Shown one piece after another: positions 26,581 through 57,527 of a stretch of DNA of 64,000 nt; within the stretch, counting starts at the first letter, position 1, and the number at the start of each line of letters is the position of its first letter. The notes below the pieces were generated by a model that saw only the letters and a program-made list of their open reading frames with translations, did no database searches and was not told where the DNA came from. The stretch spans positions 62,001 to 126,000 of the forward strand of contig JAGVWC010000011.1 of NCBI GenBank assembly GCA_018304465.1. Reading direction: 5' to 3'. This DNA comes from Candidatus Iainarchaeum sp. (lineage in GTDB: Archaea; Iainarchaeota; Iainarchaeia; Iainarchaeales; JAGVWC01). The translations under genes were made by a program, and so were the position numbers.

Positions 26581-26651
26581 TCTGCCAAAAGTTATATTTT
26601 TCTTGTTCGTTTTTATTTCAGCGGATAAAGATATCTTCCCACAACGTTGCG
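26581..26651 (-). repeat. scpA 3'-end repeat, copy 1
   Basis: Matches the 75-bp end of scpA from the CCAA edge through the ATCTTCCCA core. Read on the minus strand it decodes as WEDIFIR, stop, NKNEQEK, so the ScpA C-terminal motif is still visible but carries a nonsense change. Same orientation as scpA. Confidence 0.85.
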
Positions 26652-26674
26652 TTTATTACAAAAAAAGAATTTTT

Positions 26675-27079
26675 TCAATCTGATGAAACAATTTCAAAGG
26701 CCAATAAATACTCGTCGTTTATTTTAAGCGCATATTTTCCATTGGCACCCGCTAAACCAACCGTACGGGTATAATATTCAGTCCATCCATCAAAACGCGA
26801 ATCCAACTTCTGCCATCCAAGCTGGTTTAGATCTTGGCTCAAGAGAGTATTTGGGTATTCAACAAACTCGAATTGATTCAGAGTGATTTGGGTTTTTGTC
26901 AGAACATGCAATTCATCGAACGATTCAAAACTTGAACACCGGAAATTAAAATCGGGTGGAAGACTAGCTACATTGCATTGTAATACCGGCTTATTTGCCC
27001 AAAATGGCTTCTCTCCCACACACCCCATCAACAGGAGCCCCCCTACCAGGAGGATACAAACCAAAGAAAGATGTTTCAT
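26675..27079 (-). CDS. Putative lipoprotein
   Basis: 134 residues. The signal peptide MKHLSLVCILLVGGLLLMGC ends in a lipobox-like LMGC. The mature part is short and beta-rich with a further cysteine pair; no domain is recognised. It lies between two scpA-end repeats and so looks like a one-gene cassette. A box near 27104-27114 could be its promoter. Confidence 0.65.
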   Translation of the reverse strand: MKHLSLVCILLVGGLLLMGCVGEKPFWANKPVLQCNVASLPPDFNFRCSSFESFDELHVLTKTQITLNQFEFVEYPNTLLSQDLNQLGWQKLDSRFDGWTEYYTRTVGLAGANGKYALKINDEYLLAFEIVSSD

Positions 27080-27191
27080 GTTTCAAATACAATTAGAAAG
27101 AATAAAAATGTTCCTACAACGCATTTGTTTTGGCAAGAACAATTTCCTTTTTCACGAATTCCACAAAATAAGTTTAATTGCTGTTCTCTTG

Positions 27192-27225
27192 CGTTTTGTT
27201 CGAGCGGATGAAAATATCTTCCCAA
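27192..27225 (-). repeat. scpA 3'-end repeat, copy 2 (core only)
   Basis: The core GCGGATGAAAATATCTTCCC and flanks decode on the minus strand as IWEDIFIRSNKTQEN. Homology to scpA is limited to about 34 bp. A short inverted match to the outer part of the repeat (GGCAAGAACAATT) occurs at 27132-27144. Confidence 0.75.
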
Positions 27226-27268
27226 ATTAACGAGTCTATTTTTAAAAGAAATTTTGTTTGGATCGGTT

Positions 27269-28420
27269 TCAATTCGGAAGCGACAAATCCCATTCTATTT
27301 TTTGATTCCCCGTAAAATCATCCGTATCGGGATGCGCGGCCCAAGAGTCATTCAATGATCCGTTCAATCTCCCGGATTCGGTCCAGGTTCCCTCGATGAA
27401 CGCCAGAGTTATTCCCAGTGGTTCGTCGTACGATTGGGCGGTTTCTTCGCAGCCTTCTTCGTTGGTCTGGGTCACGGTAACGTGCACCATGACCGCTTTG
27501 TCCACGATGGGTCCCGAATAAGTTCCGTCCGCATAGACGCCGACATATCCATCCTCATATCGATCCAATACTTCGCTTCCACTGCCTGTTCGAACCGTCG
27601 TAGCGCAGTCGTCCCGGGTCGTTTCCTGAAACTCCCAGGTCAATAATCCGTCAGACCAATAATACGTCAAGGCCTCCGGATTCCGATACCCGAAAACAGC
27701 ATGTTCTTTCAAAGTCCCGCCCAGTATGGATACTCGAAGGAAATGGTTATACGAATAATTTCTCGTCGCCCATTCACGGGTGACCCAACTACACTGCAAC
27801 GGCGCCGAAGCCGCCCGGTTCATGATCTGGGTATTCAACGCGTCCAAATCCGCGGTACTTGTCAATTCGGCTAATTCGATCAAACGCCCCTTGCACAGGG
27901 TCGAATTCGTTAACACGCCTTCGATATACGCTTTGATCTTATTCTTCACCGCATCCATCAATTCCGGGTCCTTGATGCCAAGCGATTCGGCCCACGAAAA
28001 CGCATCCAACCATGCGCGCGGAGTGGATGCGGGATCCGATAACACGAACCGAACCCATTCCTTGATTCGGGCCACTACTTCAGCCGGCAATTCATCCTCC
28101 GAGACACCCGCTTCAATCAGGATCCGCATGGCCGCGGACTGCTGTGCGATCGTCGAAGAACTGCTTTTCATCACGTCTTTGGCGTCTTCGATCTTGGGAT
28201 CGTTGTCCGCGTCCGGATCCGGTCCCGGATTGTTTCCCAACGGACCCGAATCGTCATTCGAATCCGATGCGGGATTATTCGAACCGCTTGGCGGAAAAGT
28301 CGCCGCATTTGGACCCGTCGAAGACGGAACCTGGGCACAACCGACAAGCCACACGAGCAAAAGCACGGCCAACGGCCACACGATCAATCGAAGACGCCTA
28401 TTCACGGGAAAACCAATCAC
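27269..28420 (-). CDS. Putative lipoprotein with Asp/Asn-rich linker
   Basis: 383 residues beginning at GTG. The signal WPLAVLLLVWLVGC has a lipobox (LVGC) and is followed by a low-complexity segment rich in Ser, Asn, Asp and Pro, as in surface-displayed lipoproteins. The middle is helical and the C-terminal ~150 residues are beta-rich with two cysteine pairs. No family is recognised. A box CCATAAATAGT (28443-28453) is 28 bp upstream of the GTG. It lies between scpA-end repeats. Confidence 0.7.
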   Translation of the reverse strand: MIGFPVNRRLRLIVWPLAVLLLVWLVGCAQVPSSTGPNAATFPPSGSNNPASDSNDDSGPLGNNPGPDPDADNDPKIEDAKDVMKSSSSTIAQQSAAMRILIEAGVSEDELPAEVVARIKEWVRFVLSDPASTPRAWLDAFSWAESLGIKDPELMDAVKNKIKAYIEGVLTNSTLCKGRLIELAELTSTADLDALNTQIMNRAASAPLQCSWVTREWATRNYSYNHFLRVSILGGTLKEHAVFGYRNPEALTYYWSDGLLTWEFQETTRDDCATTVRTGSGSEVLDRYEDGYVGVYADGTYSGPIVDKAVMVHVTVTQTNEEGCEETAQSYDEPLGITLAFIEGTWTESGRLNGSLNDSWAAHPDTDDFTGNQKIEWDLSLPN

Positions 28421-28488
28421 GCTATCAGAATGAATTTTCCTACTATTTATGGATTGCGTTATGAATCGCTCATTACGCTTCCGTGTCC

Positions 28489-28520
28489 CATTTCACGAAG
28501 AAGTCTTCCCGCGACCGCAC
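28489..28520 (-). repeat. Possible degenerate scpA 3'-end repeat, copy 3
   Basis: GAAGTCTTCCCGCGACCGC resembles the core and outer part of the copy at 56109 (GATGTCTTCCCACGACCGC). The rest has diverged, so this copy is tentative. Confidence 0.4.
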
Positions 28521-28625
28521 AAATCCAAACGAGCCGAGGCCATTTTGCAGGGAAAAGATATACAGTTGTGAAGGCAAAAAAAAGCATATTTTTATGGGAA
28601 CAAAACCGCCGTAAAACCACGTTTT

Positions 28626-30905
28626 TCAGGGATTCCGTTTCAGGAGAACCCCTGATTTGGCTTCCATTGCAATCGAGGAAACCGGCGCGCCCGAAAGCGT
28701 ATAAAACGTGCCTGCAAGCGAAACCGTTTCGGTCACGGTTCCCGAATTCACGAGCACGAGCACGTTTTGGTATTCGCGCTCATACACGCCGACGGTTCCG
28801 GAACGCAGGTGATATTCTTCACGCGGCTGCCCCACGTTGGTGTCCCACGCGTCAAAATGCACGTAGGTCTGGTAGGGCCCCGGATCCAAACCGAAATGAA
28901 AAAACGCGAACCGCTGGTTTCCAAGCAAGAAAGTCGCGAACGAATAGGACGCCACTTTTTTCATCTGAATGGTATCCGGATCAGAGGGATTGAGCCTATT
29001 CGCGTCCGGCAACCGGAGCCGCCCTTGTGCAAGATAAATCCGCGTCTTCGAAATCGAATTCAGTTCATCCAACTGCTTTTTCCAAGTGGCGCCTGAAAGC
29101 CACGAACCAATGGGAGCCGTCCACGGAGACGCGACGAATTGCTCGTCCATTCCCCCATCAGTTAAACTCGGAAACGAATCGTCTTCGGTCCAACTGTAAA
29201 TGATTCCGTTAAAAACAGTGAGCTTGGGCTTGATTGCGGCCCGAACGAACGAAATCGTATCACTCATGCGCTGGGGCCACGCGTCAATGAAAGCCTGATC
29301 CGGTTCGGACAATGCCCGATAACTCACATACACCGTGCTGTAGGGCTCAACCGGAGTTCCGAGCACGATCTGGTTTTTGGAATAGCTTCCGCCTGCAAAA
29401 AAATCGGTTCCGGTTTGGTCCGGATTATCGAACGCCGTGATGTCGTTTTCACACGCGTAATACGGTTGTGGCGTGTGCAAATTCTCATCCGGCAGATCAA
29501 TGGTTTTTCCGTCGGATCCGACCGTCTGGGACTCGCTTGAAACCCAGCGGATAAATCGGTTGGCGGTCACAATCCGTCCCAGCGCGTTGTCCAGGAATAT
29601 TCCGTCCAAATTTTGGTTTTTGGAAAGAAGCGCTTTCGAATAATCGGCCAACGCTTCCCGCCAAGCGGTTTCCGGATTGATGAGATACCCCGTGAAATAA
29701 CAACGGTGCCGCAGACGGTTTTCGCGAGTAACCGGATGGTTCCGGGCATGGGCAAAGGCGTTCTCGTTGTCTTTGATCGCGTCCCAGACCTCTTTCACCC
29801 AGGTTTCATTCTCGTAAACCGTGTAGGTCTGGGCATACTCGACCACGGGAAGACGGTTACTGGATTGAGACAACAACTCCGATCCAAATACCAGGCCCCG
29901 AATCGAAAAATCCAGTTTGTCAAGCAAAAAATCATGAATTTGCATCGGATCCGTGACTTCCGAGACCGTTCCGTCAAGATGAAACCGCTGTACTTTCGTC
30001 ACATTGTAGGCCGGAAACTGGATTTTGACTATATCGGACTGGCTTGCGATCAGACAATCCCACGGGCAATTGTCTGTTCCCTCGCCTTTGCCGCACACCT
30101 GGTCCCCGCAGACACCCGCGCAATCCGAAGGACACGTCAACGCGGTTTCGCCGGCTTCGCACGCGTCGTTTCCGCACGAGTTGCATTGCGAAACATCGAA
30201 CCCAGAACAATCCGGCTTGCAGGAAAGCGATCCGCCTGCGAAGCCCTGCAATCCACAAGTCTGGGAATTCAAGTCGGAAGAATCACAGGATTCGAATCCC
30301 TCAATGATTCCGTTTCCGCAGGAGTAGACCGGCGGGGTTTCCAAAATGCATTGTTTGACATCAAAGCTTCGGCAATCGGACGCACACAACAAGGTTCCGC
30401 CTTTAAATCCAAACGACCGGCAGGTAGTGCCGTTTAACTTCTCCTTGTCGCAGACCTCCGGCGTTTCAATCACCGAATCGCCGCACACGGGCCGTGAACC
30501 GCAATCATTCGAATTGCAGACGGGTAAAGCCGGACAATCGACTTTACACGAATTCGAATTCTCGCCGATTTCTGATTCACACACGCCATTGGCATTGCAC
30601 ACCCAACAATCCAATAAACAATTATTCACGTTCTCGCCGGTTTCACACACCGAATTCCCGCAAAGGTACTCCGGATTCGACACCGGAAGAACCGGGTCCG
30701 GCAAATTTCCGAAAAAATTGGCATCACTGTTTGAGTCGCCTACCGGCAAAGCAGGCGGTCTTTGAACCGACAGCCCCACCCAAGTGATTCCGATAACAAG
30801 AACAACAAACAAGACCAAGGAAACCGTGTTAAGCATTTGATTGATCGGCGCCTTGCCAGACGGTGTGGACACGAACACAAGATCTTTCGATGCGTCGGAT
30901 TCCAT
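28626..30905 (-). CDS. Membrane-anchored Cys-rich protein with glycosidase-like (GHL-type) C-terminal domain
   Basis: About 759 residues. One membrane helix lies near the N-terminus (LVLFVVLVIGITWVGL). About 230 residues of tandem cysteine-rich repeats follow, of the type CGNSVCETGENVNNCLLDC and CGDSVIETPEVCD, alternating two repeat classes. The C-terminal ~480 residues resemble the putative glycosyl-hydrolase-like families (GHL15 type), with NLDGIFLDNALGR as the likely catalytic strand. Substrate unknown. ATG 30905 is preceded by CTTTTTATTGG about 30 bp upstream; the upstream TTG is less likely. It lies inside the scpA-repeat block. Confidence 0.75.
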   Translation of the reverse strand: MESDASKDLVFVSTPSGKAPINQMLNTVSLVLFVVLVIGITWVGLSVQRPPALPVGDSNSDANFFGNLPDPVLPVSNPEYLCGNSVCETGENVNNCLLDCWVCNANGVCESEIGENSNSCKVDCPALPVCNSNDCGSRPVCGDSVIETPEVCDKEKLNGTTCRSFGFKGGTLLCASDCRSFDVKQCILETPPVYSCGNGIIEGFESCDSSDLNSQTCGLQGFAGGSLSCKPDCSGFDVSQCNSCGNDACEAGETALTCPSDCAGVCGDQVCGKGEGTDNCPWDCLIASQSDIVKIQFPAYNVTKVQRFHLDGTVSEVTDPMQIHDFLLDKLDFSIRGLVFGSELLSQSSNRLPVVEYAQTYTVYENETWVKEVWDAIKDNENAFAHARNHPVTRENRLRHRCYFTGYLINPETAWREALADYSKALLSKNQNLDGIFLDNALGRIVTANRFIRWVSSESQTVGSDGKTIDLPDENLHTPQPYYACENDITAFDNPDQTGTDFFAGGSYSKNQIVLGTPVEPYSTVYVSYRALSEPDQAFIDAWPQRMSDTISFVRAAIKPKLTVFNGIIYSWTEDDSFPSLTDGGMDEQFVASPWTAPIGSWLSGATWKKQLDELNSISKTRIYLAQGRLRLPDANRLNPSDPDTIQMKKVASYSFATFLLGNQRFAFFHFGLDPGPYQTYVHFDAWDTNVGQPREEYHLRSGTVGVYEREYQNVLVLVNSGTVTETVSLAGTFYTLSGAPVSSIAMEAKSGVLLKRNP

Positions 30906-30917
30906 GTAGATTAACAA

Positions 30918-31075
30918 AGAGGATTCGCCAATAAAAAGCTAACTGAAAAAAAGATTTTTTTTCTATTTGGAAACGCGAAATCCGTTTTTTTTCAAATCCA
31001 AAATCACGGAATTTAGCTTCTCGATTATTTTCCCACAGCCCGATGGCAATTCAAAACAAAAAAAATAAAAAGATT
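30918..31075. other. Short gene-free stretch with promoter only
   Basis: AT-rich spacer between two minus-strand genes. It contains the TATA-like box of the glycosidase-like gene near 30931-30940. I see no gene or scpA-type repeat in it. Confidence 0.4.
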
Positions 31076-31092
31076 AGAGGCGATTCGCCTCT
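31076..31092 (-). terminator. Hairpin terminator after the DUF4382 lipoprotein gene
   Basis: AGAGGC and GCCTCT pair around a 5-base loop, 10 bp after the stop codon at 31102. On the minus strand a T-rich run follows. Confidence 0.55.
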
Positions 31093-31101
31093 TTTTTGAC
31101 C

Positions 31102-32442
31102 TTACGGAATCGAAATAATGCCGTCGACTCCGATCTCGAGAATGACTTGGGGTCCAATGCGCATATCGACACCCATCTCGCCGTCTTCATTCATTCCAAC
31201 AGCGTGTTTGGTCGTGGTGATTCCACCCACTAAGATCACTTTTTGGCCTTGGGTCACCGAAACATCCACTTCGGATTTGGTTTCAACCAAGATAACGGGG
31301 GCCAAAATATACTTTCCATTGCCCGTTACATGCAGCGAATCATCCGCATTAAAATCCAATACCGCAGTGGCCGTCTCGTTTTGGTCCACTTCAAGATTGG
31401 CGTCAATTCGCAGTACATTTGACGGAAGCTTCGCGGTTTTGGCCTGGTTATCGACCGTCAAGTTGACATCGGACACGGATAACCGAATCTGATCATATGT
31501 TCCGGCCATCACATTGACATCCGCCATCAATGCGATTGAACTGTCGGCACTCAATGCGATCAGGTCGAATGTTTGCACCGAAGAAGAAATGGTATTCCAC
31601 AGGCCTGCATTCGAATCGCGGACTTCCACGCGTGTAACCGTCAGCAAAATACTGGTTACATTGTTCAAGTCTTTTTTGGCATCCGTGATTCCAATGACCA
31701 CGCGTCCGTTTCCCCGGCCTTGCGGACCAAGACCAATTCTAATTTTGCCTTGGGCATCAATGTCAAGGGCCGTGTCGCGGGGAATGCCGATTCCAACACC
31801 CATGTTTCCCTGGATGTCCATTCCGAATTTGGCGTTTGATTTAACAGTTCCGCCTCGAACTGAAATGGAATTGTTCGAACCTGCTTCAACTGTTGCATTG
31901 CTTCGGGTTTCCATTTGAATTACCGGCGCCAGAATATATTTGCCGTTTCCCGTGACATGCAATGATTCGTCAGCCAATACATCCAAAACAACAGTCGAAG
32001 TCGAGTTGCTATTGACATCTAATTGCCCCACTAGTTTTAGTTCGTTGGATGGCAATTTGGCTTCGGTGGTTCCGGTTTCATCCGTGACCATCACTTTAGA
32101 AATCTGCAACCGCAACTGCTGATACGTTCCAGGCTGCAAATTGACATCCGTCAATGCAACCACCATGGATTGCGACTTTAAGGCCAACAAATCCACTGTT
32201 TTGGATGTGGATGATACGGTTACCCAGCCTTTGGATGCACTATGCACTTGAATCTGATCAATCGTCACATCGATTTTTGATACGGACTCCATGTTTGCGG
32301 CCGCATCCGTGATTCCGATGACTATCCGACCGGTTGAGGCACCACCATTTGGATTCGACGGGGCACTTGTACAACCAACGAGTAATAGCAGAAGTACTAA
32401 GGCCACCATTCCGATTGGAACTGAAAAACGCTTCAAACTCAT
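31102..32442 (-). CDS. Lipoprotein with two DUF4382 domains
   Basis: 446 residues. A signal peptide with LLLLLVGC lipobox is followed by two homologous DUF4382 beta-sandwich domains. Each starts GRIVIGITDA or GRVVIGITDA, has DVNLQPGTYQQLRL or DVNVMAGTYDQIRL, and ends HVTGNGKYILAPVI. A C-terminal extension follows each domain. The protein is probably anchored on the outer face; function unknown. ATG 32442 has GGTGG at good spacing; GTG 32451 is the alternative. It follows repeat copy 4. Confidence 0.85.
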   Translation of the reverse strand: MSLKRFSVPIGMVALVLLLLLVGCTSAPSNPNGGASTGRIVIGITDAAANMESVSKIDVTIDQIQVHSASKGWVTVSSTSKTVDLLALKSQSMVVALTDVNLQPGTYQQLRLQISKVMVTDETGTTEAKLPSNELKLVGQLDVNSNSTSTVVLDVLADESLHVTGNGKYILAPVIQMETRSNATVEAGSNNSISVRGGTVKSNAKFGMDIQGNMGVGIGIPRDTALDIDAQGKIRIGLGPQGRGNGRVVIGITDAKKDLNNVTSILLTVTRVEVRDSNAGLWNTISSSVQTFDLIALSADSSIALMADVNVMAGTYDQIRLSVSDVNLTVDNQAKTAKLPSNVLRIDANLEVDQNETATAVLDFNADDSLHVTGNGKYILAPVILVETKSEVDVSVTQGQKVILVGGITTTKHAVGMNEDGEMGVDMRIGPQVILEIGVDGIISIP

Positions 32443-32526
32443 TCTATCCACCCAATAAACATGAGTAATATTTCAATATAAATCAGTTGCTTTTATAGCG
32501 ATCGGCCATTGTGACGAGTAACAAAC

Positions 32527-32601
32527 CCGGCCAAAAGTCTTATTTTTCCTGTTCGTTTTTATTCCAGTGGATGAAAATATCTTCCCAGAATTGTTCATGC
32601 C
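32527..32601 (-). repeat. scpA 3'-end repeat, copy 4 (full length)
   Basis: A full 75-bp match to the end of scpA. On the minus strand it decodes as EQFWEDIFIHWNKNEQEK followed by TAA at the same place as in scpA. Many differences from scpA are synonymous or conservative, as if it came from a diverged scpA gene rather than from random drift. Confidence 0.9.
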
Positions 32602-32635
32602 AAAAATGTGTAAATGTGATTGACCACGAAATGAC

Positions 32636-32995
32636 CTATGCTCGTTTTGGGTTTAATGCGGATTCCAATTTAGCCCATATTTTTTTGAACTGTTGAGGAG
32701 AACAGCTTTTTTGCAATTGCAAACGGAATGATTTCTTGCTGATGACTCCCGAACGGATTAACTGGGCTGCAAACCCAATCCTGAATTGCTCGCTCTGAAT
32801 AATCTTCGGAACAGGGATTGCGTTCGTAGGAATAAACATCGGGCCGACGGGCTGCCGTTCTCGAATCTGCTTTTTCGCATAGTCGTTCATTCTCCATTTA
32901 ACGGTATTCACCGTTTTTCTGATTTGGCGTGCAGTACTTGGCCTTCCTCGTGTTGCCGTTTTCGTTTTCGGCTTTTTTTGTTTTCTCACACTCAT
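32636..32995 (-). CDS. Small basic hypothetical protein
   Basis: About 119 residues, strongly basic at the N-terminus (SVRKQKKPKTKTATRGRP, AT-hook-like RGRP) with predicted helices after residue 70 (FRIGFAAQLIRSG, SPQQFKKIWAKLES). It could bind nucleic acid; no family is recognised. Start ATG 32995 follows GAGGAGG; the 5' region directly abuts repeat copy 5. Confidence 0.55.
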   Translation of the reverse strand: MSVRKQKKPKTKTATRGRPSTARQIRKTVNTVKWRMNDYAKKQIRERQPVGPMFIPTNAIPVPKIIQSEQFRIGFAAQLIRSGVISKKSFRLQLQKSCSPQQFKKIWAKLESALNPKRA

Positions 32996-33002
32996 TTCCT
33001 CC

Positions 33003-33097
33003 TCAGCCAATCGGCTTATTTTTCCTGCTGATTTTTATTCTTTTGATTTTTGTCAGCCAAGAAACGTTTTTTGTTGTTAGAACTTGCTCTTGTCACA
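33003..33097 (-). repeat. scpA 3'-end repeat, copy 5 (rearranged)
   Basis: The stop-codon half (TCAGCCAATCGGCTTATTTT and the following bases, 33003-33040) matches scpA. The WEDIFI core is missing, and a diverged outer part (GTTAGAACTTGCTCTTG) appears after a 35-bp spacer. It looks like a recombined or decayed copy. Confidence 0.65.
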
Positions 33098-33154
33098 TTA
33101 TTTTTAATTGTGCAAAGAAACGATTCTTTCTCCTCTGGATATAACTCAGGGCCC

Positions 33155-34216
33155 CTATGCGCTTTGTTTTTGCTTGATAACATCTCGCATTTGGTATAAC
33201 CGACTTTCAGCAATGCCGGTAATTTCGGTTACACGAGTCGGATGATAACCGCGCCGCAAGAATTCTTCTGCAATCGTGTCTCGGATGAACTTCAAGGGAA
33301 TTCTGAGCTGTTTGGCCATTTTTCTCCAATTGAAGCTCATTGGCGTTTTTTTCGGCATGAAAACACGAATGATCCGCTTCTTTGCTTTTTTGCTTTCCTG
33401 AAATCGTCGGCCAGTAATTCCATGGGCAACTCTGACTTTGGTAGCGGATTGACGAATTGCGTTGATGGTGGTCGAGTACCCGTGACGGGATTCGCGTTCG
33501 AGTGCTCGCTGTGCAATTCTATCGCGCGGTTCAAAAGTGAGTTTGAATGCTTTTCGGAGAAATTCTTCTCTCCGCGCCGCATTGGGTATACGCTTTCCTT
33601 CGAATGATCTTCGCTCTTGAAGGCTTCGGATTTTTTTGGCGATTCGTGTCACTGTTTCTAATCCGACAAAGATATGTTGGTCGGCCAATCGACCCGGAAT
33701 TTCTGTTTCGGTATACTTGAATTTTCCTTCCGGTGTTCGCGCTGAAAGAAGTTTGGCAACAGCATCCCACGCGTCTTTGCGAACACGAGCCTTGGCAATC
33801 TTTTGTCCCACGCTCTTAGTGTTTTTTCGTCCGTGGATTCGATTGTTCATACTTTTGACTCCCGCAAAGGAGATCCCTGATTTAGCAGCAATCTCCCCAA
33901 GAGTCATCTTTCTTCCGCGCAATTTAGATGTAACCCAATCAACGGTCGCTGGTTCCAATATAGTCTCCAATCGTCGGCTTCTGCCATTGGCCGCAATTCC
34001 TTGTTCAATAATTTTCTCCGGAGTCCGTGCACCAGAAAAAACAAGCACTCGTTTCACAGCTTGACCAGACGCACGAACTCTCTGCTTAATACTGGAAATT
34101 GGTTCTGTGTCGGGCGATTCAAGGATTCGTGAAAATGTCTGAAAAGGCAATCGTCTACGCGAGGCCTTTGCATAGTGCGCATACAAGGAAGGTATTTGAT
34201 GTGAAGGAATCGGCAT
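33155..34216 (-). CDS. Multi-helix-turn-helix basic protein
   Basis: About 353 residues, basic throughout, with several homeodomain-like HTH segments: MTLGEIAAKSGISFAGVKSM (near residue 105), a second near FVGLETVTRIAKKI (near 190), RKMAKQLRIPLKFIRDTIAE (near 310) and RVTEITGIAESRLYQMRDV (C-terminal). There is no serine- or tyrosine-recombinase signature that I can see. It may bind DNA and could regulate or help move the cassettes (speculative). ATG 34216 has a TATA (GATTTATATTC, about 34240-34250) 28 bp upstream. It is flanked by repeat copies 5 and 6. Confidence 0.6.
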   Translation of the reverse strand: MPIPSHQIPSLYAHYAKASRRRLPFQTFSRILESPDTEPISSIKQRVRASGQAVKRVLVFSGARTPEKIIEQGIAANGRSRRLETILEPATVDWVTSKLRGRKMTLGEIAAKSGISFAGVKSMNNRIHGRKNTKSVGQKIAKARVRKDAWDAVAKLLSARTPEGKFKYTETEIPGRLADQHIFVGLETVTRIAKKIRSLQERRSFEGKRIPNAARREEFLRKAFKLTFEPRDRIAQRALERESRHGYSTTINAIRQSATKVRVAHGITGRRFQESKKAKKRIIRVFMPKKTPMSFNWRKMAKQLRIPLKFIRDTIAEEFLRRGYHPTRVTEITGIAESRLYQMRDVIKQKQSA

Positions 34217-34272
34217 TTCAAACACACATCATTGTCGAATATAAATCTTGCCATAGGCACAGTAGTATTTTT

Positions 34273-34347
34273 CTGCTAATCAGCTTTTTTCCTGATTTTT
34301 GTTCCAGCGAATAAAGATGTCTTCCCAAAACAAGAACACGCTGCACG
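34273..34347 (-). repeat. scpA 3'-end repeat, copy 6
   Basis: On the minus strand it decodes as SCSVFLFWEDIFIRWNKN followed by QEKS and a stop. The outer part differs from scpA but shares CCAAAACAAGAACACGCTG with the copy at 55448, so it belongs to a second subfamily. Confidence 0.85.
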
Positions 34348-34423
34348 ACTTTTTCGACAAAAAAATAATTAGAATGGCCGAATTTGGTGCCGTAATTTGA
34401 ATAGTTTTTTATACAAGTCGCCG

Positions 34424-34438
34424 CACTATTAAATAGTG
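34424..34438 (+). promoter_or_regulatory. Palindromic operator of the RelBE-type module
   Basis: CACTATTAAATAGTG is a perfect 15-bp palindrome ending 5 bp before the antitoxin ATG. A TATA-like GTTTTTTATAC lies about 20 bp further upstream. The placement fits autorepression by the antitoxin complex. Confidence 0.55.
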
Positions 34439-34443
34439 ACATA

Positions 34444-34653
34444 ATGGTTAGTAATGAGCAGATTTTGCAGGGAAAAGCAATCAAAGAATTGGCTGAGGAA
34501 GCCGCCCGCGTAAAAGAAGGCTTGAAAGGATACTTAGAAGACTTGGAATTATACTCGAATCCTGAATTTTGGGAAGCAATCGCCGAAACCAACGAAAACA
34601 AAGGCAAAAAATTCGCTTCAACCAAAAAACTCTTCCAAGAGCTCGATAGCTGA
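34444..34653 (+). CDS. RelB-type antitoxin
   Basis: 69 residues, acidic and helical: KELAEEAARVKEGLKGYLED then ELYSNPEFWEAIAE. This resembles short archaeal antitoxins paired with RelE. Its stop and the toxin start share an A (TGATG), so the pair is translationally coupled. It is flanked by repeat copies 6 and 7. Confidence 0.75.
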   Translation: MVSNEQILQGKAIKELAEEAARVKEGLKGYLEDLELYSNPEFWEAIAETNENKGKKFASTKKLFQELDS

Positions 34654-34901
34654 TGCCCTACTCTGTTTTTCGATCCGACAGGTTCAAAAAAGAATACAAA
34701 AAACTCGACGGTCGCCAACAACAATTAGTGAAAAAGAAAATCGACAAAATCGTCGAAAACCCCGAAGTCGGAAAACCCTTGCACGCGCCGTTGCAAAACT
34801 TCAAAAGCGAACGAATCGAAAACCTGCGAATCGTCTACACGATTGAAGGAACATTGATCAAATTCGCTTGGATCGAAGACCGCGGACACGCATACGATTA
34901 A
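34653..34901 (+). CDS. RelE-family toxin
   Basis: 82 residues with the RelE/ParE fold: FRSDRFKKEYKKLDGRQQ, KIVENPEVGKPLHAPL, ENLRIVYTIEG and the C-terminal FAWIEDRGHAYD. RelE members cleave mRNA on the ribosome; the C-terminal His/Tyr are plausible functional residues. It is coupled to the preceding antitoxin. Confidence 0.85.
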   Translation: MPYSVFRSDRFKKEYKKLDGRQQQLVKKKIDKIVENPEVGKPLHAPLQNFKSERIENLRIVYTIEGTLIKFAWIEDRGHAYD

Positions 34902-34925
34902 AATTGTGTATTAAACGCCTTTATC

Positions 34926-34945
34926 GTTAGAAATTGTTCTTGCCA
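34926..34945 (-). repeat. scpA 3'-end repeat, copy 7 (remnant of the outer edge)
   Basis: GAAATTGTTCTTGCCA matches the outer edge of the repeat (scpA residues QEQF); the core is missing. The flanking GTTAGAA is shared with copy 5. Confidence 0.45.
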
Positions 34946-34955
34946 CTTTGTGAAC

Positions 34956-35573
34956 TTACAAGTTTGGATTATTTCTCGCATCATAAAAAAACATGCTTGT
35001 CATCACCACGGAGTGAAAAATGTCATGCCTAATTTGAAACTCCAACAGTTCTTCAAAAGTTGGATTATTTTTTTGATCCCACCGGTCTTCGTTTGAAGGG
35101 TCAAAAAATAAGCCCATTTTACTGATGACGCCTTTGATTCTTGCATCTTCTACATTGCTGATTTTTTGGGCAAGCTCTCGGATTTGCCAATGAACGGGTT
35201 GGTCCATCGAAAAATCTCTCGGATTTCGGGAGAACCAGTCTATCATTCGATTAAATGCGTCGGAAGCTTCAGGGGTGACTTTGGATCTCACTTGCTCTTT
35301 AAGCGATCCGGCAATGATTGGAATAATTTGTTCAATCGCTCTTGCGGTTCCCGTTTGTGTTCTTTCAGATCCGACGCCATGCGATAACACAATTCGAAGC
35401 GACCTGGCTACAATGGATTTTTCCATCGGATTTTTAACCATCGTGGCCAACGGTTTCCACCCCTTCTTGCGAGCAGCCAGATACGCCTTTTGATGAGCAA
35501 CATACTGTGGAGTTTTTCGTTGCGGCAAGTTCAACACCACTAAAAAAGCATTCAAACCAATTAAAATAATCAT
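34956..35573 (-). CDS. Hypothetical protein starting at the edge of the scpA repeat
   Basis: 205 residues. The N-terminus is hydrophobic (MIILIGLNAFLVVLNL), perhaps a membrane anchor or signal; the rest is soluble and helical with WFSRNPRDFSMDQPVHWQ and FHSVVMTSMFFYDARNN. No family is recognised. The ATG is the first codon after the 75-bp scpA-end repeat, 12 bp past the scpA stop. I see no separate promoter, so it is probably expressed from the scpA promoter, like the first cassette of an array. Confidence 0.6.
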   Translation of the reverse strand: MIILIGLNAFLVVLNLPQRKTPQYVAHQKAYLAARKKGWKPLATMVKNPMEKSIVARSLRIVLSHGVGSERTQTGTARAIEQIIPIIAGSLKEQVRSKVTPEASDAFNRMIDWFSRNPRDFSMDQPVHWQIRELAQKISNVEDARIKGVISKMGLFFDPSNEDRWDQKNNPTFEELLEFQIRHDIFHSVVMTSMFFYDARNNPNL

Positions 35574-35647
35574 CAGCCAAACGTCTTATTTTTCCTGTTG
35601 ATTTTTATTCCAGCGAATAAAGATATCTTCCCAGAATTGTTCTTGCC
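35573..35647 (-). repeat. scpA 3'-end repeat, resident copy inside scpA
   Basis: This is the genuine 3' end of scpA plus about 13 bp beyond the stop. It encodes QEQFWEDIFIRWNKNQQEK and serves as the reference for all other copies. The outer boundary beyond the stop is (T/A)CAGCCAA on the plus strand. Confidence 0.9.
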
Positions 35648-36392
35648 AAATCATGATTTGGTTTCGATTGGCCAAAAACAACAATGGAATAAAATTGTTC
35701 ACGACTTCGATGGGGTCGTTTTTGTGTTCGGCGGTTAACTGCGAAAACAACACGAGTCCCTGCGAATCCGCGCGCGCTTTGATCTTGTTCAACACATCCG
35801 CCATTTTTTCTTCAATGTTAAAACTCGGGTCCGGCATCACGAAGCGCAGTTCCTCGAGTTTTTTGGCAAACCGCGACTGCGTCGAGGATTTGGCCAGCAT
35901 GGTTTCAATGGTTTGCACCAGTGAATCAAGCGTAACGGGTCCTTCGCGCATCATGCGGGTTCCGCGTAACTCCGGGATCTGGGCGGCAAGCAACGCGCGT
36001 TCTTCCGGCGACAATTCTTTTTCCTTTAATTCGTCTTCCAGTTCTTCAAGACTTGTCAAACGCAGGGTTTTCGCTTTGTGTTTAAGCAAAATCGCGGTCG
36101 CCAAAATCGCGTTGGCGGGCACGCGCAGATTCGACCGTTCCAACAAATTTATTTTGGACAAATACAAATCCGCCAAGCGAATCACGTCAATGTTCCACGG
36201 ATCCATTTTTTCGGCTTTCACGATATCAAGCAAAATCGTTTTCCAAGCCGGCTGGTCAATCAAGTCCACCAAATATTCATGCGTCACTTCTTCGGGCAAC
36301 GCGTATTCGATCAACTGTTCCGAATCCGCCTCTTCTTTTTGATGCGATTCCACGGTGCTTTCGGTTACATCCGGTTTTTTTTTGGGAGACAT
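35586..36392 (-). CDS. scpA: Segregation and condensation protein A (kleisin)
   Basis: 268 residues. ScpA is the kleisin subunit that bridges SMC heads in chromosome condensation. The N-terminal SMC-binding region is EYLVDLIDQPAWKTILLDIV with KAEKMDPWNIDVIRLADLYL, followed by the typical TAILLKHKAKTLRL. The C-terminal winged helix ends QEQFWEDIFIRWNKN. No smc or scpB is in the window. A TATA (TTTATATTC, about 36415-36423) is 27 bp upstream of the ATG (leaderless). Its last 60 bp are the source of the dispersed repeats. Confidence 0.92.
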   Translation of the reverse strand: MSPKKKPDVTESTVESHQKEEADSEQLIEYALPEEVTHEYLVDLIDQPAWKTILLDIVKAEKMDPWNIDVIRLADLYLSKINLLERSNLRVPANAILATAILLKHKAKTLRLTSLEELEDELKEKELSPEERALLAAQIPELRGTRMMREGPVTLDSLVQTIETMLAKSSTQSRFAKKLEELRFVMPDPSFNIEEKMADVLNKIKARADSQGLVLFSQLTAEHKNDPIEVVNNFIPLLFLANRNQIMIWQEQFWEDIFIRWNKNQQEK

Positions 36393-50896: not shown

Positions 50897-50901
50897 CTCG
50901 C

Positions 50902-52500: not shown

Positions 52501-52572
52501 TTTTCCGACCTCGCTCTTGCTGATTACAAGAACACCGCACTTTTTAAAAGTGTTCCCCCAAAACCACTCGGA

Positions 52573-53454
52573 TCACTTTTGGGCCTTGACTGAAAAATCA
52601 ATCACGGCTTGCAGGATTTCCTTTGAAAACGAACGGACTTTTTTCTTTTCCAGAAAAACAACCGAAAACCCGTGTTCCTTCGCTTTTTTGGTGATCAATT
52701 TTTCAAGAGCAGAAAACGGGTCGCTTGCGGGAGCGAATGCGTAAAAATGAATGACGCACCCCGCGGGATTAGCCCCAAAAAGCGCAGCGTCCAAAAAATC
52801 CTCGCTTCCGCGGGGCATCGGCATGGTGATCCGGTCAAACGCGCCTTTGAATTTTTTGGGAACAATCCTATTAACGTCCCCAAGCACGGGCACGACTTTT
52901 TCACCGACTTTGTTCGCGGCGATGTTAAATTCCATGTCTTTGACCGCGATCGGATTCAGTTCGATCGCAACCGCTTTTTTCATCAAAGAATTTTTCGCGA
53001 AAACAATCGGAAACGGGCCCACGCCGGCAAACAACGTACCGATGGTTTCACCCGCTTGAATCAATTTCGAAATGCGCAGCCGTTCGGTTCCAAGTCGCGG
53101 TGAAAAAAAAACTTTTCCCAAATGAATCTGAAACACGCAGCCGCTTTCGCGATACGTGGCCAGTAATCTTTTTTTTCCCGCGATGACTTTAAGCGGTTCC
53201 GCCCGAAAACGCCCTTTGTGCGCGCCGGCTTTCTTGGCAATCGTTTCGAAACGTGGATTGGTTTCAAGCAACGCCTGACCGATCTTTTTTTCTTTTTTCA
53301 CCAGTTCATCCGGAATTTCAATGATCGCGACGTTGCCCAGCGAATCAAAACTCGAAACCAAGTACTCGAATTCTTTTGGGGTCAAAATTCCTTTGAGCCG
53401 CTCTTTTAGACTTTGCGGACGCGACCCTTTTTTTATTTCAACCAAACGAGCCAT
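52573..53454 (-). CDS. trm5: tRNA (guanine37-N1)-methyltransferase Trm5
   Basis: Makes m1G37 next to the anticodon. About 293 residues from ATG 53454 (MARLVEIKKG). The D2 domain has NVAIIEIPDELVKKEKKIGQ and the D3 domain FFSPRLGTERLRIS, the SAM motif ETIGTLFAGVGPFPIVFAK and AVAIELNPIAVKDMEFNI. The NPPY-like position reads TMPMPRGSEDFLDAAL, typical of archaeal Trm5. Divergent from DUF63. Confidence 0.93.
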   Translation of the reverse strand: MARLVEIKKGSRPQSLKERLKGILTPKEFEYLVSSFDSLGNVAIIEIPDELVKKEKKIGQALLETNPRFETIAKKAGAHKGRFRAEPLKVIAGKKRLLATYRESGCVFQIHLGKVFFSPRLGTERLRISKLIQAGETIGTLFAGVGPFPIVFAKNSLMKKAVAIELNPIAVKDMEFNIAANKVGEKVVPVLGDVNRIVPKKFKGAFDRITMPMPRGSEDFLDAALFGANPAGCVIHFYAFAPASDPFSALEKLITKKAKEHGFSVVFLEKKKVRSFSKEILQAVIDFSVKAQK

Positions 53455-53515
53455 AATCAATATGAAAAACAACAGGCGTTTTGTTTAAAACCATTTTCCA
53501 AACACAAATCGTATC

Positions 53516-54358
53516 ATGGTCATCGAAATATTGAACGATTTTTTCTGCAAGCCAATCCTAAACTACGAAGGATACAACCTCGTCAACACCTTGGTGTACG
53601 GCGTGATTTTGCTCGTGATCGCGTTCAAAATCGTCTACCCGTTTTTTAACAAACGAAACATCCGCTTTGACCACCGATTCCTGATTTCCCTGTTGCCCTT
53701 TATCCTATTGGGTTCCTCGTTTCGGATTTTCGAAGACCTCAAACTGATTCCGCGGTCCTGCAATCCATTAGAACCCGCATTTTACACCATTTCTCCCGGC
53801 GTATACATTTTCATCGGAATCTTAACGATTCTTTCCTTATGGCTCTCGCTTGAAATATCCAAAAAAACCAAGTACAGCGCCTTGACCGTGTTCACGGCCA
53901 TCGGAAGCGTTTTCGCTCTGATCAGCCTCGTATTTTTGGCGCCCTTCATCACCGAATGGATCGCCGTAATCGCGATACCGGTTTTCACGCTGCTCCTCGT
54001 GATCGGCGCGACGATCCTGACGCGTATGCACTCCAAAACCAAAACGCTTCTGGATCACAACCCGCAAAACCAACTCGTTTTGTTCGGACAATTACTCGAC
54101 GGAAGCGCGACGTTTACCGCGATCCAGTTCTTCGGTTTTTCCGAACAACACGTCGTCAGCAACGCCATCATCCAGGGTTTTGGCCCCATCGCGTTTTTAA
54201 TCGTAAAATTCGGTTTGATGCTCGCGATACTGTATTTTGCCGACAAGGAAATCGAAGATGAAAACCTTCGCGGATTCATCAAGATTTTTATCGCCATCAT
54301 CGGGTTTGCTCCAGGAATCCGGGACGTTCTCCTCATCGGAGTCGGACTCGGATCCTAA
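53516..54358 (+). CDS. DUF63 family membrane protein
   Basis: 280 residues with about seven hydrophobic helices, beginning EILNDFFCKPILNYEGYNLV and containing FILLGSSFRIFEDLKLIPR; these are conserved features of archaeal DUF63. Function unknown. A TGTTTAAAACC box (about 53482-53492) is 27 bp before the ATG. Confidence 0.88.
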   Translation: MVIEILNDFFCKPILNYEGYNLVNTLVYGVILLVIAFKIVYPFFNKRNIRFDHRFLISLLPFILLGSSFRIFEDLKLIPRSCNPLEPAFYTISPGVYIFIGILTILSLWLSLEISKKTKYSALTVFTAIGSVFALISLVFLAPFITEWIAVIAIPVFTLLLVIGATILTRMHSKTKTLLDHNPQNQLVLFGQLLDGSATFTAIQFFGFSEQHVVSNAIIQGFGPIAFLIVKFGLMLAILYFADKEIEDENLRGFIKIFIAIIGFAPGIRDVLLIGVGLGS

Positions 54359-54392
54359 AAAGGTTTAATAACTTCCAATGGAAATAGTCGCT

Positions 54393-55154
54393 ATGCTGTA
54401 CGTGATCGGAATCGGACTTTCGCCGCAACAAATGACGCTTGAAGCAGTGGCAGCTGTCAAAAAAAGCCGGAAAATATACCTTGAAAACTATACCAGCGCG
54501 TTTGCCAGTGGAACCCGCAAACAATTGGAAAAAATCCTGCACAAAAAAATAACGGTTTTGACGCGAAAACAAGTCGAAGAAGAATTCACGCCGGTTCTAT
54601 CGCTTGCGCGCAAAAAAACCGTCGCATTACTGGTCTACGGAAACCCCTTGTTTGCCACCACCCACATCCAGTTGATCCTCGACGCGCAAGCCAAGCGAAC
54701 CCCTATTACCGTCATTCCGGGAATTTCCATTGTGAATTATGTCGGCGCCACCGGACTTGACGCCTACAAATTCGGCCGCACTGCAACCGTCGTGTTCCAA
54801 GAACCCAATTATTCGCCTCACTCGTTTTTTGACATCATCGAAAAAAACAGCCAAGCGGGACTACACTCGCTGTGCCTGCTTGATATTCGCACGGATGAAA
54901 ACCGTTTCATGACCGTTACCGAGGCCATCGCGATACTGCGAAAAATAGCGGATTTTCGAAACTCCGATTTGATCCAAAACACAGTGCTAATTGGGTTGTA
55001 TGGTGTCGGCGGCAAAAACCAGCGGATCCGAATCGAAAACCCTTCGATCACCCGAAAACCCATCGAAGCGTATCCCCAATCCCTGATCGTTTGCGGCAAA
55101 CTCAATCCCAAAGAACAAGAAGCCATTGAATTGTTTCGGGGGAAAAAACGATGA
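54393..55154 (+). CDS. dph5: Diphthine synthase
   Basis: SAM-dependent methyltransferase that modifies the diphthamide precursor on elongation factor 2, a trait of archaea and eukaryotes. About 253 residues of tetrapyrrole-methylase fold: LYVIGIGLSPQQMTLEAVAA, LLVYGNPLFATTHIQLILDA, PGISIVNYVGATGLDAYKFG. ATG 54393 matches the family start and is 27 bp from GGTTTAATAAC (54360-54370), so 54378 is unlikely. The 3' end overlaps DUF357 by 4 bp. Confidence 0.93.
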   Translation: MLYVIGIGLSPQQMTLEAVAAVKKSRKIYLENYTSAFASGTRKQLEKILHKKITVLTRKQVEEEFTPVLSLARKKTVALLVYGNPLFATTHIQLILDAQAKRTPITVIPGISIVNYVGATGLDAYKFGRTATVVFQEPNYSPHSFFDIIEKNSQAGLHSLCLLDIRTDENRFMTVTEAIAILRKIADFRNSDLIQNTVLIGLYGVGGKNQRIRIENPSITRKPIEAYPQSLIVCGKLNPKEQEAIELFRGKKR

Positions 55155-55438
55155 ACGAAACACTTCGGCACAAAACCAAAAAATACCGGCTATTAACCGA
55201 AGAAGCATTGCGAGTCATCCAAGTCTCAAAACCGCTTTCAACCAAAGAAAAAAAAATCGCGGCCGACTTTTTGCAAATGACGCGAAATTATTTTTCCGAC
55301 GGACAACACTTCGAACATCAAAAAGAATTCGCTACGGCACTTGCGGCCTATTCGTATGCACACGCATGGCTGGACGCAGGAGTACGCGCCGGATTATTCG
55401 ACGCAAAAGGAAACGACCGGTTGTTCACGCTACAATAA
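55151..55438 (+). CDS. DUF357 protein
   Basis: 95 residues, an archaeal helical protein with the pattern YFSDGQHFEHQKEFATALAA and AYSYAHAWLDAGVRAGLF. Role unknown. It is translationally coupled to dph5 (ATGA). The second repeat block begins about 10 bp after its stop. Confidence 0.88.
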   Translation: MNETLRHKTKKYRLLTEEALRVIQVSKPLSTKEKKIAADFLQMTRNYFSDGQHFEHQKEFATALAAYSYAHAWLDAGVRAGLFDAKGNDRLFTLQ

Positions 55439-55447
55439 AAAAAGATT

Positions 55448-55486
55448 GGGGGGATGAAAATATCTTCCCAAAACAAGAACACGCTG
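55448..55486 (-). repeat. scpA 3'-end repeat, copy 8
   Basis: On the minus strand it decodes as SVFLFWEDIFIP and then diverges. It shares CCAAAACAAGAACACGCTG with copy 6, 21 kb away. It marks the left edge of the second repeat block, right after the dph5-DUF357 operon. Confidence 0.8.
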
Positions 55487-55523
55487 TTTGATTTTCAGGC
55501 GGAAAAAATGCTGGAATTGGCTG

Positions 55524-55781
55524 TCAAAACTGGGTATACACTTTTTTCCGGTGTTCGATCCGCAGGACAATTATTTTTTTTGTTGCTGGAAATTTTTGGA
55601 CAATTACCCGATAATGCCCCACACGAACCTTTTGGTATGGCGTTCCTTTTACGGCCTCGAGAAAAACGGAATCTTCTTTTTCAAATAATTCCATCTTGTC
55701 GAGAATTCGACGAGTAAGTTCTTTTTCAAGGGACTCAAGATCTTTCTTTGCGCGGTTCGTCCAAACAAGTGTGAAAGGCAT
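55524..55781 (-). CDS. RelE/ParE-family toxin
   Basis: 85 residues: LVWTNRAKKDLESLEKELTR, VKGTPYQKVRVGHYRVIVQK and VLRIEHRKKVYTQF at the end, where the His and Tyr match the RelE-type C-terminus. It directly follows the antitoxin gene with no gap. It lies between repeat copies 8 and 9. Confidence 0.85.
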   Translation of the reverse strand: MPFTLVWTNRAKKDLESLEKELTRRILDKMELFEKEDSVFLEAVKGTPYQKVRVGHYRVIVQKFPATKKIIVLRIEHRKKVYTQF

Positions 55782-56030
55782 TCATAAACCCAGTTCTTTG
55801 CGTAATTGCTTGGAAGAAAACACGCGTCCGTGCCGCAGGTCTTTTTTAGCCTCTTCAATCCCCCTCAAGGTTTCCGAACTCAATTCGAACTCGGCCTCTT
55901 CATCTTCACGTATGCGACTTAATAATTTCTCAATCACATCCGCGTAGGTTTCACGCTCGTTTTCCTTGAATGCATCCAAATCCTTCTTTACTTTAACCGG
56001 GATCTGAATAGTCGAATTATCAGCCATCAT
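55782..56030 (-). CDS. Antitoxin with N-terminal ribbon-helix-helix-like region
   Basis: 82 residues. STIQIPVKVKKDLDAFKENE resembles the DNA-binding strand-helix of archaeal VapB/RelB-type antitoxins; the acidic C-terminal half would wrap the toxin. An AT-rich box (AATATACTATAAGG, about 56039-56052) precedes it. MADNS at 56027 is an alternative start. Confidence 0.78.
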   Translation of the reverse strand: MMADNSTIQIPVKVKKDLDAFKENERETYADVIEKLLSRIREDEEAEFELSSETLRGIEEAKKDLRHGRVFSSKQLRKELGL

Positions 56031-56108
56031 AACACCTTATAGTATATTACAAACAACTATAATAAAAGACGTTTCTTTCGATGATTGTGGAAATATCTTT
56101 TTGCCGCA

Positions 56109-56161
56109 GGTTTTGTTCCAGCGGATGAAGATGTCTTCCCACGACCGCTCCACGCTGCACG
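56109..56161 (-). repeat. scpA 3'-end repeat, copy 9
   Basis: On the minus strand it decodes as PCSVERSWEDIFIRWNKT; the WEDIFIRWNK core is intact although many codons differ from scpA (GAC, ATC, TTC, AAC variants). The outer part resembles copy 6 (CACGCTGCACG). Confidence 0.85.
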
Positions 56162-56256
56162 GTTTATCGACGGTTTTCTAAAGAAGACTGGCCGAGAACT
56201 TCGCCCGTTTTGAATTCGCCGGAACCTTTTTTAATTATAGGAACTCCGTATATACA

Positions 56257-57438
56257 ATGCCCGCACGAAATCGTCGCATACAACGAGTCCAAGCGGAAAC
56301 CAATCGTGTGATGGACTCTGCCTTTGGAAATCCGCAGCACCGAGGAATAACACGTAGGCAACGCCTGGGAGAACTGCGCAACCAAGCCGCCCGTTATGCA
56401 AAACATGCGCCCGTCCAATTTGCAGCCCGACAAATCGTTAAACACCTCAGCCGCGCGCAAACTACGTTTGAAGGCCATTCAAAGATCACTCCTATCCAAA
56501 GCGCTTCTGTTTTTTACGGGGGTCAAAACATCCGGTTCGGAAAAGCGATTCGGGAACACTTTCGAAAACGCAGGATCACCGCTCGATCCATGCAGCTAGA
56601 TTCAAAACGATCTCCCACCAGCACAGTTGAGAATCGGCGCATCGACGCATTATCACGAGCAAACGCGGTTGTATTTGCAGCGAATGGTCCCGCCAGCAAG
56701 CTTGATGGCCCCGTAGACCGGATTGTGAATAGTGTGGAGCGGCGATACGGAAAAAAAAGCGGTACTCGTCTTGCGCTGATGTACGGCATTACACCGCAAG
56801 CAGTCCGAGAAGTGCTATCCCTAAACTCCAAACGCATGCATGAATTCACACGGCGGACTTTTCAAGCGGTACACGGATGCAAAACCATCCAAGTCCGGTC
56901 TTCCAGCGGGACCAACATGACTTTTTCGATTACTCCCCGACATCGCTGGGTTCAAGATAACGCTATTCTCTCTAAAAACTATTGGGGAAACCTGCCCGCA
57001 GGAGAAGTATTCACCGCGCCCGCTTCCGCCAACGGAAACCTTGTGATCGATGCCGTGATGAACAACGTTGGCGACTGTCATAAAACGCCCATCACTGTGC
57101 AAATCCGAAACGGTCGCGCGATCCCTCAAACCGCACGGTGCAAGAACCCGCGACTGCTCAGAAAGTTTCTTGCCCAAATCCATGCGGAACCCAACGCGGA
57201 CCGCATCGGCGAACTTGGTTTAGGGACCAATGTGGCGGTGACCAAACTCACCGGTAACGATTTGGTGGATGAAAAGCATGTGGGCGTGCACGTGGCGTTT
57301 GGAGACCCCGAAGGCGCAGACACGGGGGCCACATGGACGACGGCAGAAGGCACTCATAACGATGCGATTCTGCGAAAACCCAGCATATTTGTGGATGGGC
57401 GCTGCATCATGCGAAACGGAAAAAGTCTACTGATGTAA
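56257..57438 (+). CDS. Fusion of a basic N-terminal region to an M29-like aminopeptidase
   Basis: 393 residues. The first ~180 are strongly basic (MPARNRRIQRVQAETNRV) with a possible HTH (ALMYGITPQAVREVL). From about residue 210 the sequence follows archaeal M29-type leucyl aminopeptidases: VRSSSGTNMTFSITPRHRWV, NLPAGEVFTAPASANGNLVI, IGELGLGTNVAVTK, DEKHVGVHVAFGDPEGAD, THNDAILRKPSIFVDGRCIM. The Glu, Glu, His and HxD metal ligands all appear to be present, so it may be active. The usual N-terminal half of M29 is missing or replaced. Flanked by repeats on both sides. Confidence 0.75.
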   Translation: MPARNRRIQRVQAETNRVMDSAFGNPQHRGITRRQRLGELRNQAARYAKHAPVQFAARQIVKHLSRAQTTFEGHSKITPIQSASVFYGGQNIRFGKAIREHFRKRRITARSMQLDSKRSPTSTVENRRIDALSRANAVVFAANGPASKLDGPVDRIVNSVERRYGKKSGTRLALMYGITPQAVREVLSLNSKRMHEFTRRTFQAVHGCKTIQVRSSSGTNMTFSITPRHRWVQDNAILSKNYWGNLPAGEVFTAPASANGNLVIDAVMNNVGDCHKTPITVQIRNGRAIPQTARCKNPRLLRKFLAQIHAEPNADRIGELGLGTNVAVTKLTGNDLVDEKHVGVHVAFGDPEGADTGATWTTAEGTHNDAILRKPSIFVDGRCIMRNGKSLLM

Positions 57439-57452
57439 AACTCATGGCTGTC

Positions 57453-57527
57453 ACAGCCAATCAGCTTATTTTTCCTACTCGTTTTTATTCCAGCGAATAA
57501 AGATATCTTCCCAGAATTGTTCTTGCC
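57453..57527 (-). repeat. scpA 3'-end repeat, copy 10 (full length, nearly identical to scpA)
   Basis: A 75-bp match to the scpA end with 8 differences, all in the stop-codon half; the 46 bp from TTTTTATTCCAG to CTTGCC are identical although the two sites are 22 kb apart. On the minus strand it decodes as QEQFWEDIFIRWNKNE and an early TAG. It starts 14 bp after the stop of the fusion gene. Confidence 0.92.

Follow-up and report, generated by a model that had tools for sequence, protein, structure and literature searches.

Why does the end of scpA, the gene for the kleisin subunit of SMC-ScpAB, recur in one orientation between accessory genes of an archaeal genome? The question arises from a stretch of 64,000 nucleotides (the window, G000:C7:62001-126000) in a genome of 1.25 Mb, 15 contigs and 92% completeness (G000; further genomes are also given by number). 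We propose that the repeats are attachment sites of small non-autonomous cassettes, which integrate site-specifically, are mobilised in trans and form integron-like arrays, and we assign this explanation a probability of roughly 0.8. The source organism is a Diapherotrites/Iainarchaeota-type archaeon, as shown by the archaeal genes dph5 and Trm5 and by the named relatives found with ScpA (Candidatus Diapherotrites, Ca. Iainarchaeum and Ca. Forterrea).

Copies of the scpA 3' end

A search with PF02616 found a single scpA in the source genome, 62% identical to scpA of G001 from the same family. A 32-bp pattern for WEDIFIRWNK matches seven times in the window, always on the minus strand and never on the plus strand, while the chance expectation is a mean of 0.08 matches per simulated window (50 Markov-1 simulations, at most 9 mismatches). 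BLAST with a 63-bp consensus retrieved 11 copies from the genome at E<0.01, and a second query including the left arm added 55448 and C7:10002 as clear matches. In total, about 13 copies are present. Those outside the window lie at C7:10002 and on contig C15 at 12760, 13909, 14885 and 104699. Among 176 open reading frame (ORF) 3' ends from about 183 kb of sequence, the total of the stretches used besides searches for checks on this genome, scpA is the sole gene end with many displaced copies; hisG has one.

The initial annotation had placed the copies at 26581, 27192, 32527, 34273, 55448, 56109 and 57453. All of these bear the core described below, are on the minus strand and sit between accessory genes, as it had stated. 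The copy at 33003, reported as partial, keeps only the tail half. Two weaker traces fared differently: 28489 is a real divergent site (core at 28514) that agrees at 15 of 16 positions with the arm found at 56109, and 34926 is a left half only (WQEQF codons). Decoding as WEDIFIRWNK, claimed for most copies, is correct for most of them, with the exception of 57516 and 26644, which contain in-frame stops, and 55473, from which the tail is absent. A search of the repeats against Rfam gave zero family matches, and an RNA element was rejected on this ground.

Minority bases in the 13 copies of the source genome fall 11, 7 and 35 times on the first, second and third codon positions. Thus, the differences are mostly synonymous, as had been noted, and a second set of copies has the same third-position bias (13/3/24). 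One would predict this pattern for sequences that each formerly served as the functional end of an scpA gene. The further claim that the copies stem from diverged scpA genes is borne out by this bias, but it does not extend to the dispersed copies away from scpA, which we read as secondary insertions near the ends of other genes.

Architecture of the sites

Likeness to scpA begins sharply in the displaced sites at the codons for F/W-F/W-G/E-E/D-I-F-I, with a sharp left border at FFGEIF. To the right of this core each copy has a distinct C-terminal tail, usually with a stop codon; examples from G067 are FISLAKRTDQK, FIATNTGYEK and FISINGSEKRDQK, each followed by a stop. To the left lies an arm that is unrelated to scpA and constant within a lineage. 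The arm tattctataataacgctataag precedes TTTTTCGGCGAG four times in G067 and once in G015, related arms occur once each in G041 and G047, and two more are found in G015 C24. Likewise, gaaagagagaa precedes TTCTGGAGAG in G045 and G065, and in the source genome an arm resembling gcagcgtgttcttg precedes TTTTGGGAAGAC. Both larger remote clusters start with a site that is scpA-like on its left side.

Two remote sites in G015 C24 (L110 5446-5500 and 6031-6101) have in common the core TTTTTCGGCTTGGGTGTTCATC, which breaks the reading frame. This core was therefore copied or used without coding constraint, and arrays away from scpA seem to propagate in this manner. In G067, a 40-bp imperfect inverted repeat links the tail now in use at scpA to the right arm of the first cassette (L125 1964-2010 and 3066-3111); it is weaker in other cassettes. 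Terminal inverted repeats were rejected as a general feature, since 23 cassettes yielded one strong and three marginal cases.

Insertion and movement of cassettes

The assembly of G021 carries a filled (C21, L101) and an empty (C22, L159) version of the locus. In the empty version, scpA ends with the tail ISVVKND and a stop. In the filled version, scpA extends up to the core and is followed by a new tail, a gene for a 547-aa protein with a DUF6036 nucleotidyltransferase domain, and then a second core with the tail ISVIKND, a stop and the flank, the insert amounting to 2.2 kb. The two versions are 89% identical over 87 bp up to the core and 79% identical over 193 bp from the displaced core through the native tail and flank. 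These alignments overlap by exactly 21 bp, TGGTTCGGGGAAATATTCATT, which is the core as a direct repeat. Such an arrangement is characteristic of site-specific integration, the core not exceeding 21 bp. A second candidate pair, G030 against L147/L155, was discarded because it is not clean and shows further rearrangement downstream.

Cassettes are common to different genera. G015 and G067, whose scpA genes are 74.8% identical, have in common a core-bounded cassette (83.7% identical) at different array positions. The first G067 cassette, with two small genes of which one is ParE/YoeB-like, is also present in G041 just after a gene identified as nadE by its sequence and not by a family search. Cassette genes of the Fic type and for a 213-aa protein were found again in G030 and G057 and partly in G008. 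The intervening genes vary in presence, which the initial annotation had made a test of mobility: orf95 and orf191, which flank the remote array of the window, are adjacent in L126 and L149, although L149 matches orf191 only weakly (E 2e-5).

Sites away from scpA are located just past nadE (G041), past an endA-like gene (C15:104.7 kb), between orf95 and orf191 (the window) or inside an insert in hisG. They are read as secondary insertions or hitch-hiking and not as former scpA genes. The 3' end of hisG is itself duplicated, with a 96-bp copy of 98% identity about 1.4 kb beyond the gene (C7:9852-9947 and 11278-11373); a relBE-like pair and an scpA-type site lie between the two ends. This marks hisG as a second gene targeted by an integrating element.

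A profile search of the genome and its relatives, as the initial annotation had suggested, was performed with a hidden Markov model (HMM) from the ScpA C-termini of 19 relatives (consensus WQEEFFGEIFI) over 75 genomes of the order. Displaced scpA ends could be read at the DNA level in 12 of them, from six families (G000, G012, G015, G021, G030, G034, G041, G045, G047, G057, G065 and G067). At 60 scpA loci, core matches were found 12 times downstream on the same strand, three times upstream and never downstream on the opposite strand. Most blastn matches of the source-genome consensus in relatives were dismissed as chance matches.

Within the source genome, the copies share 80-95% of their sequence over about 60 bp, and degeneration is evident in several. 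These properties would also fit an immobile dispersed repeat of the ordinary kind, or a scpA 3' end that was duplicated locally and then decayed. This explanation is very improbable. It is contradicted by the third-position bias, the differing functional tails, the constant arms, the intergeneric cassettes and the occurrence in 12 genomes of six families, and it is refuted by the filled and empty locus of G021 unless that pair is an assembly error. Together, the pair with its 21-bp core repeat, the distinct tails, the constant arms and the cassettes common to genera support the initial proposal that inserting elements rebuild the scpA 3' end and displace the old one. That proposal needs revision with respect to the unit: insertion at the scpA end stands, but what inserts is a small gene cassette without an integrase.

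Proposed mechanism

In the mechanism we favour, small circular or linear cassettes of 0.6-4 kb with one or a few genes would enter the F/W-F/W-G/E-E/D-I-F-I codons near the scpA 3' end. The incoming cassette would bring a replacement C-terminal tail right after the core, usually with a stop codon, so that ScpA stays functional; its other end would carry the lineage-specific arm. The old core and old tail would thereby be stranded beyond the distal end of the cassette. Through successive insertions, arrays would arise in which all scpA ends point the same way, as in an integron with its attI inside a kleisin gene, and occasional secondary insertion or hitch-hiking would place cassettes and sites at other loci. 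Lacking an integrase, the cassettes would have to be mobilised in trans; the most probable agent is a tyrosine recombinase, either the resident XerA or the integrase of a helper element. A circular intermediate is presumed, and the process may be continuing. Displaced tails would then record past ScpA C-termini and provide a readable insertion history.

Several observations weigh against this mechanism. All genomes in the analysis are metagenome-assembled genomes (MAGs). Sequence resembling scpA is also found on the left at four sites of the source genome (scpA, 57516, 32590 and C15:14936), which a simple attL/attR scheme does not explain. No recombinase domain was detected among the cassette genes examined by domain search, and no PF00589 match occurs near displaced sites. 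Neither an excised circle nor a contig with attP alone came to light, viral contigs included. The source sequence scanned has no dif-like 28-bp site or 11-6-11 dyad at the scpA core, and across the order the core wobble positions are under no clear or core-specific constraint. Finally, with sites in only 12 of the 75 genomes, activity is sporadic.

A virus origin was rejected, since the viral contigs have neither the site pattern nor a relative of ScpA or of a cassette protein.

Candidate recombinases

Tyrosine recombinases (PF00589) are present in all array genomes and near-universal in the order. The recombinases of the source genome lie on C6, at the start of C7, at the start of C15 and on C13; none adjoins scpA, and integrases of 452 and 494 aa are among them. 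A serine (resolvase-type) recombinase occurs in only one of the 75 genomes, which is not an array genome, and this enzyme class was therefore rejected.

XerA itself may be the recombinase, with the scpA end as an alternative Xer site and cassettes comparable to integrative mobile elements exploiting Xer (IMEX) or to pdif modules. In its favour, a XerA-type recombinase is found in nearly every genome of the order, and the PF00589 proteins of the array genomes G015 (92% complete), G021 and G041 are of the short XerA type only. Moreover, IMEX such as the GGI and TLC phage lack a recombinase of their own and match dif on one half-site only, the other being divergent, as cassettes match scpA on one half (PMC5357621). 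In contrast to the scpA cassettes, for which a role of XerA is only a candidate, IMEX use chromosomal Xer at a dif site with an 11-6-11 dyad. This dyad belongs to the archaeal dif definition (PMC8371274, PMC2958812). The scpA core lacks it and has no order-wide wobble constraint, so that a dif site in scpA was rejected; the missing dyad also speaks against XerA. In addition, genomes that carry XerA, such as G013, have zero displaced copies, and at a MAG completeness of 80-92% a second integrase could be missed.

The XerA-type recombinase of the source genome (702 aa; C6:162319-164427, corresponding to L067 4319-6427) appears to carry an intein beside the catalytic HxxR motif, with the putative position TPHSMRH/C ... 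HN/SYATHLL. The XerA-type protein of G057 is a 721-aa version that is likewise split by the profile; the G015 copy has no intein.

Alternatively, a helper integrase of the archaeal type of about 400-450 aa, encoded by larger mobile elements, may move the cassettes in trans as satellites. This type is present in many genomes of the order, including C7 and C15 of the source genome, and in Thaumarchaeota such elements are known to insert at the 3' termini of protein genes (PMC6563490). However, it is absent at E<1e-5 from the array genomes G015, G021 and G041, no such gene was seen adjoining a displaced site, and its presence is uncorrelated with arrays. We hold XerA and a helper integrase to be about equally probable, each at slightly less than even odds.

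In a casposon- or transposon-like insertion, a long target-site duplication would take the place of conservative recombination. Tandem insertion of casposons at the 3' end of the conserved archaeal gene ef-2 is a known parallel (PMC6563490), and the 40-bp terminal inverted repeat of the G067 cassette would agree with it. Yet casposons encode Cas1 and a polymerase and have terminal inverted repeats and a target duplication, whereas G047 is the one array genome with Cas1 and the other 11, the source genome included, lack it; inverted repeats are not general, and the tails replace the scpA end and do not duplicate it. Such an insertion is consequently improbable, and a casposase was rejected as the enzyme.

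Features of the window

Cargo is short and frequently consists of toxin-antitoxin or defence genes. The types encountered are toxin-antitoxin pairs, PemK, Fic, AAA_14/DUF4143 ATPases, nucleotidyltransferase, lipoproteins and methyltransferase. Cassette genes of the source genome are mostly without a relative near scpA of other genomes (Table 1).

The 356-aa protein with helix-turn-helix (HTH)-like stretches has three paralogues, in the scpA array of the window, at C15:5137-6185 and at C15:238518-239543; one of the three, itself interrupted by a stop, is situated some 1 kb from a tyrosine integrase of 494 aa. Cysteine motifs of the form CGNG...E.CD are repeated in large surface proteins that the genome encodes more than once (28626-30917 of the window, L026 6808-8697 and L027 ~19000-19900), and two of these proteins directly adjoin displaced scpA ends.

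Table 1. scpA, its active and displaced 3' ends, and the cassettes between them (window coordinates).
Feature	Position	Strand	Evidence
scpA (kleisin subunit of SMC-ScpAB), 268 aa; 3' end is the primary target	35586..36392	-	PF02616 56.3 bits
Active site at scpA 3' end: core (FWEDIFI codons, 35616-35636) and current C-terminal tail RWNKNQQEK, stop	35573..35650	-	self-BLAST families; copy alignment
Cassette: 205-aa ORF (34956-35573 -), RelE-like toxin ORF (34653-34901 +), upstream small ORF (34444-34653 +)	34331..35615	.	relE2 tblastn 35%
Displaced site: left arm gtcgtgcagcgtgttcttg, core, tail RWNKNQEKS, stop	34286..34353	-	E 1.4e-21; copy alignment
Cassette: 356-aa protein with HTH-like stretches (33155-34225)	33041..34285	-	patchy, 2/59 genomes
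Partial displaced site, tail half only	33003..33040	-	E 1.4e-5
Cassette: 124-aa ORF (32636-33010), 67% identical to C15-array cassette gene	32605..33002	-	
Displaced site, scpA-like left side (WHEQFWEDIFIHWNKNEQEK, stop)	32530..32604	-	89% over 75 bp to scpA end; E 8.9e-21
Cassette(s): DUF4382 lipoprotein (31102-32451), GHL15 glycosyl hydrolase-like protein (28626-30917)	28531..32529	-	
Divergent displaced site REDFFVKWDTEA, stop; arm common with 56109 copy	28485..28530	-	direct reading; copy alignment
Cassette: 383-aa lipoprotein (27269-28420)	27229..28484	-	
Displaced site WEDIFIRSNKTQENSN, stop	27186..27228	-	BLAST; copy alignment; pattern scan
Cassette: 134-aa lipoprotein (26675-27079)	26646..27185	-	
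Displaced site, last of scpA-adjacent array	26581..26645	-	E 1.7e-17; copy alignment
First site of remote array, scpA-like on both sides of core	57454..57527	-	90.5% over 74 bp to scpA end
Remote cassette: 393-aa protein, M29-peptidase-like C-terminal part (56257-57438)	56162..57453	+	PF02073 3.1e-13
Remote-array site with left arm	56111..56161	-	E 6.5e-10
Remote cassette: VapB-like antitoxin (55782-56030), RelE-like toxin (55524-55781)	55487..56110	-	PF02697 2.7e-4
Last remote-array site: arm and core only (first codons only)	55452..55486	-	E 2.3e-9

Comparison with known systems

No description of scpA as an integration target was found in the open-access literature, subscription literature being outside the search. 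Tentatively, we suggest for the Iainarchaeota-type archaea an integron-like gene-capture platform at the scpA 3' end, in which cassettes without a recombinase, many with toxin-antitoxin or defence genes and each with a substitute ScpA C-terminus, are moved in trans by XerA, tying gene capture to chromosome segregation. Arrays at scpA would give DPANN archaea, for which few mobile elements have been described, a means of acquiring genes, and would exemplify cassette arrays that lack an integron integrase. They also turn into a testable question whether a housekeeping Xer recombinase or an absent helper can move single-gene cassettes into a coding attachment site.

A short core in the 3' codons, a rebuilt gene end and a displaced end left behind are likewise features of icd-type phage targets. 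The same three features are found in the elements in 3' ends of protein genes of Thaumarchaeota (PMC6563490). Those elements are large, carry their own integrase and occur as single or double insertions, whereas the scpA cassettes are small and recombinase-less, with up to six sites in a row and a target conserved over the order.

Integron arrays, including archaeal ones (PMC9668308), resemble the scpA arrays in their short promiscuous cassettes, often of one gene and with toxin-antitoxin cargo, in the tandem same-orientation array with entry at one fixed site, and in a recombinase encoded outside the cassette. Integron cassettes are shuffled between arrays, and here the same cassettes occur at different positions and in different genera. 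A canonical integron, with the arms as attC sites and an IntI present, would account for array structure and cargo, and integrons are known in archaea. It is nevertheless the least probable of the explanations: an IntI-type gene was not recognised among the recombinases of the source genome, the junctions read GTTYTTC or are unrelated, with no GTTRRRY core, and inverted-repeat structure, and with it an attC fold, is not general. Moreover, the anchor lies inside scpA and not beside intI. Thus, unlike an integron, the scpA system lands in a coding 3' end, and each cassette restores the C-terminus of the protein.

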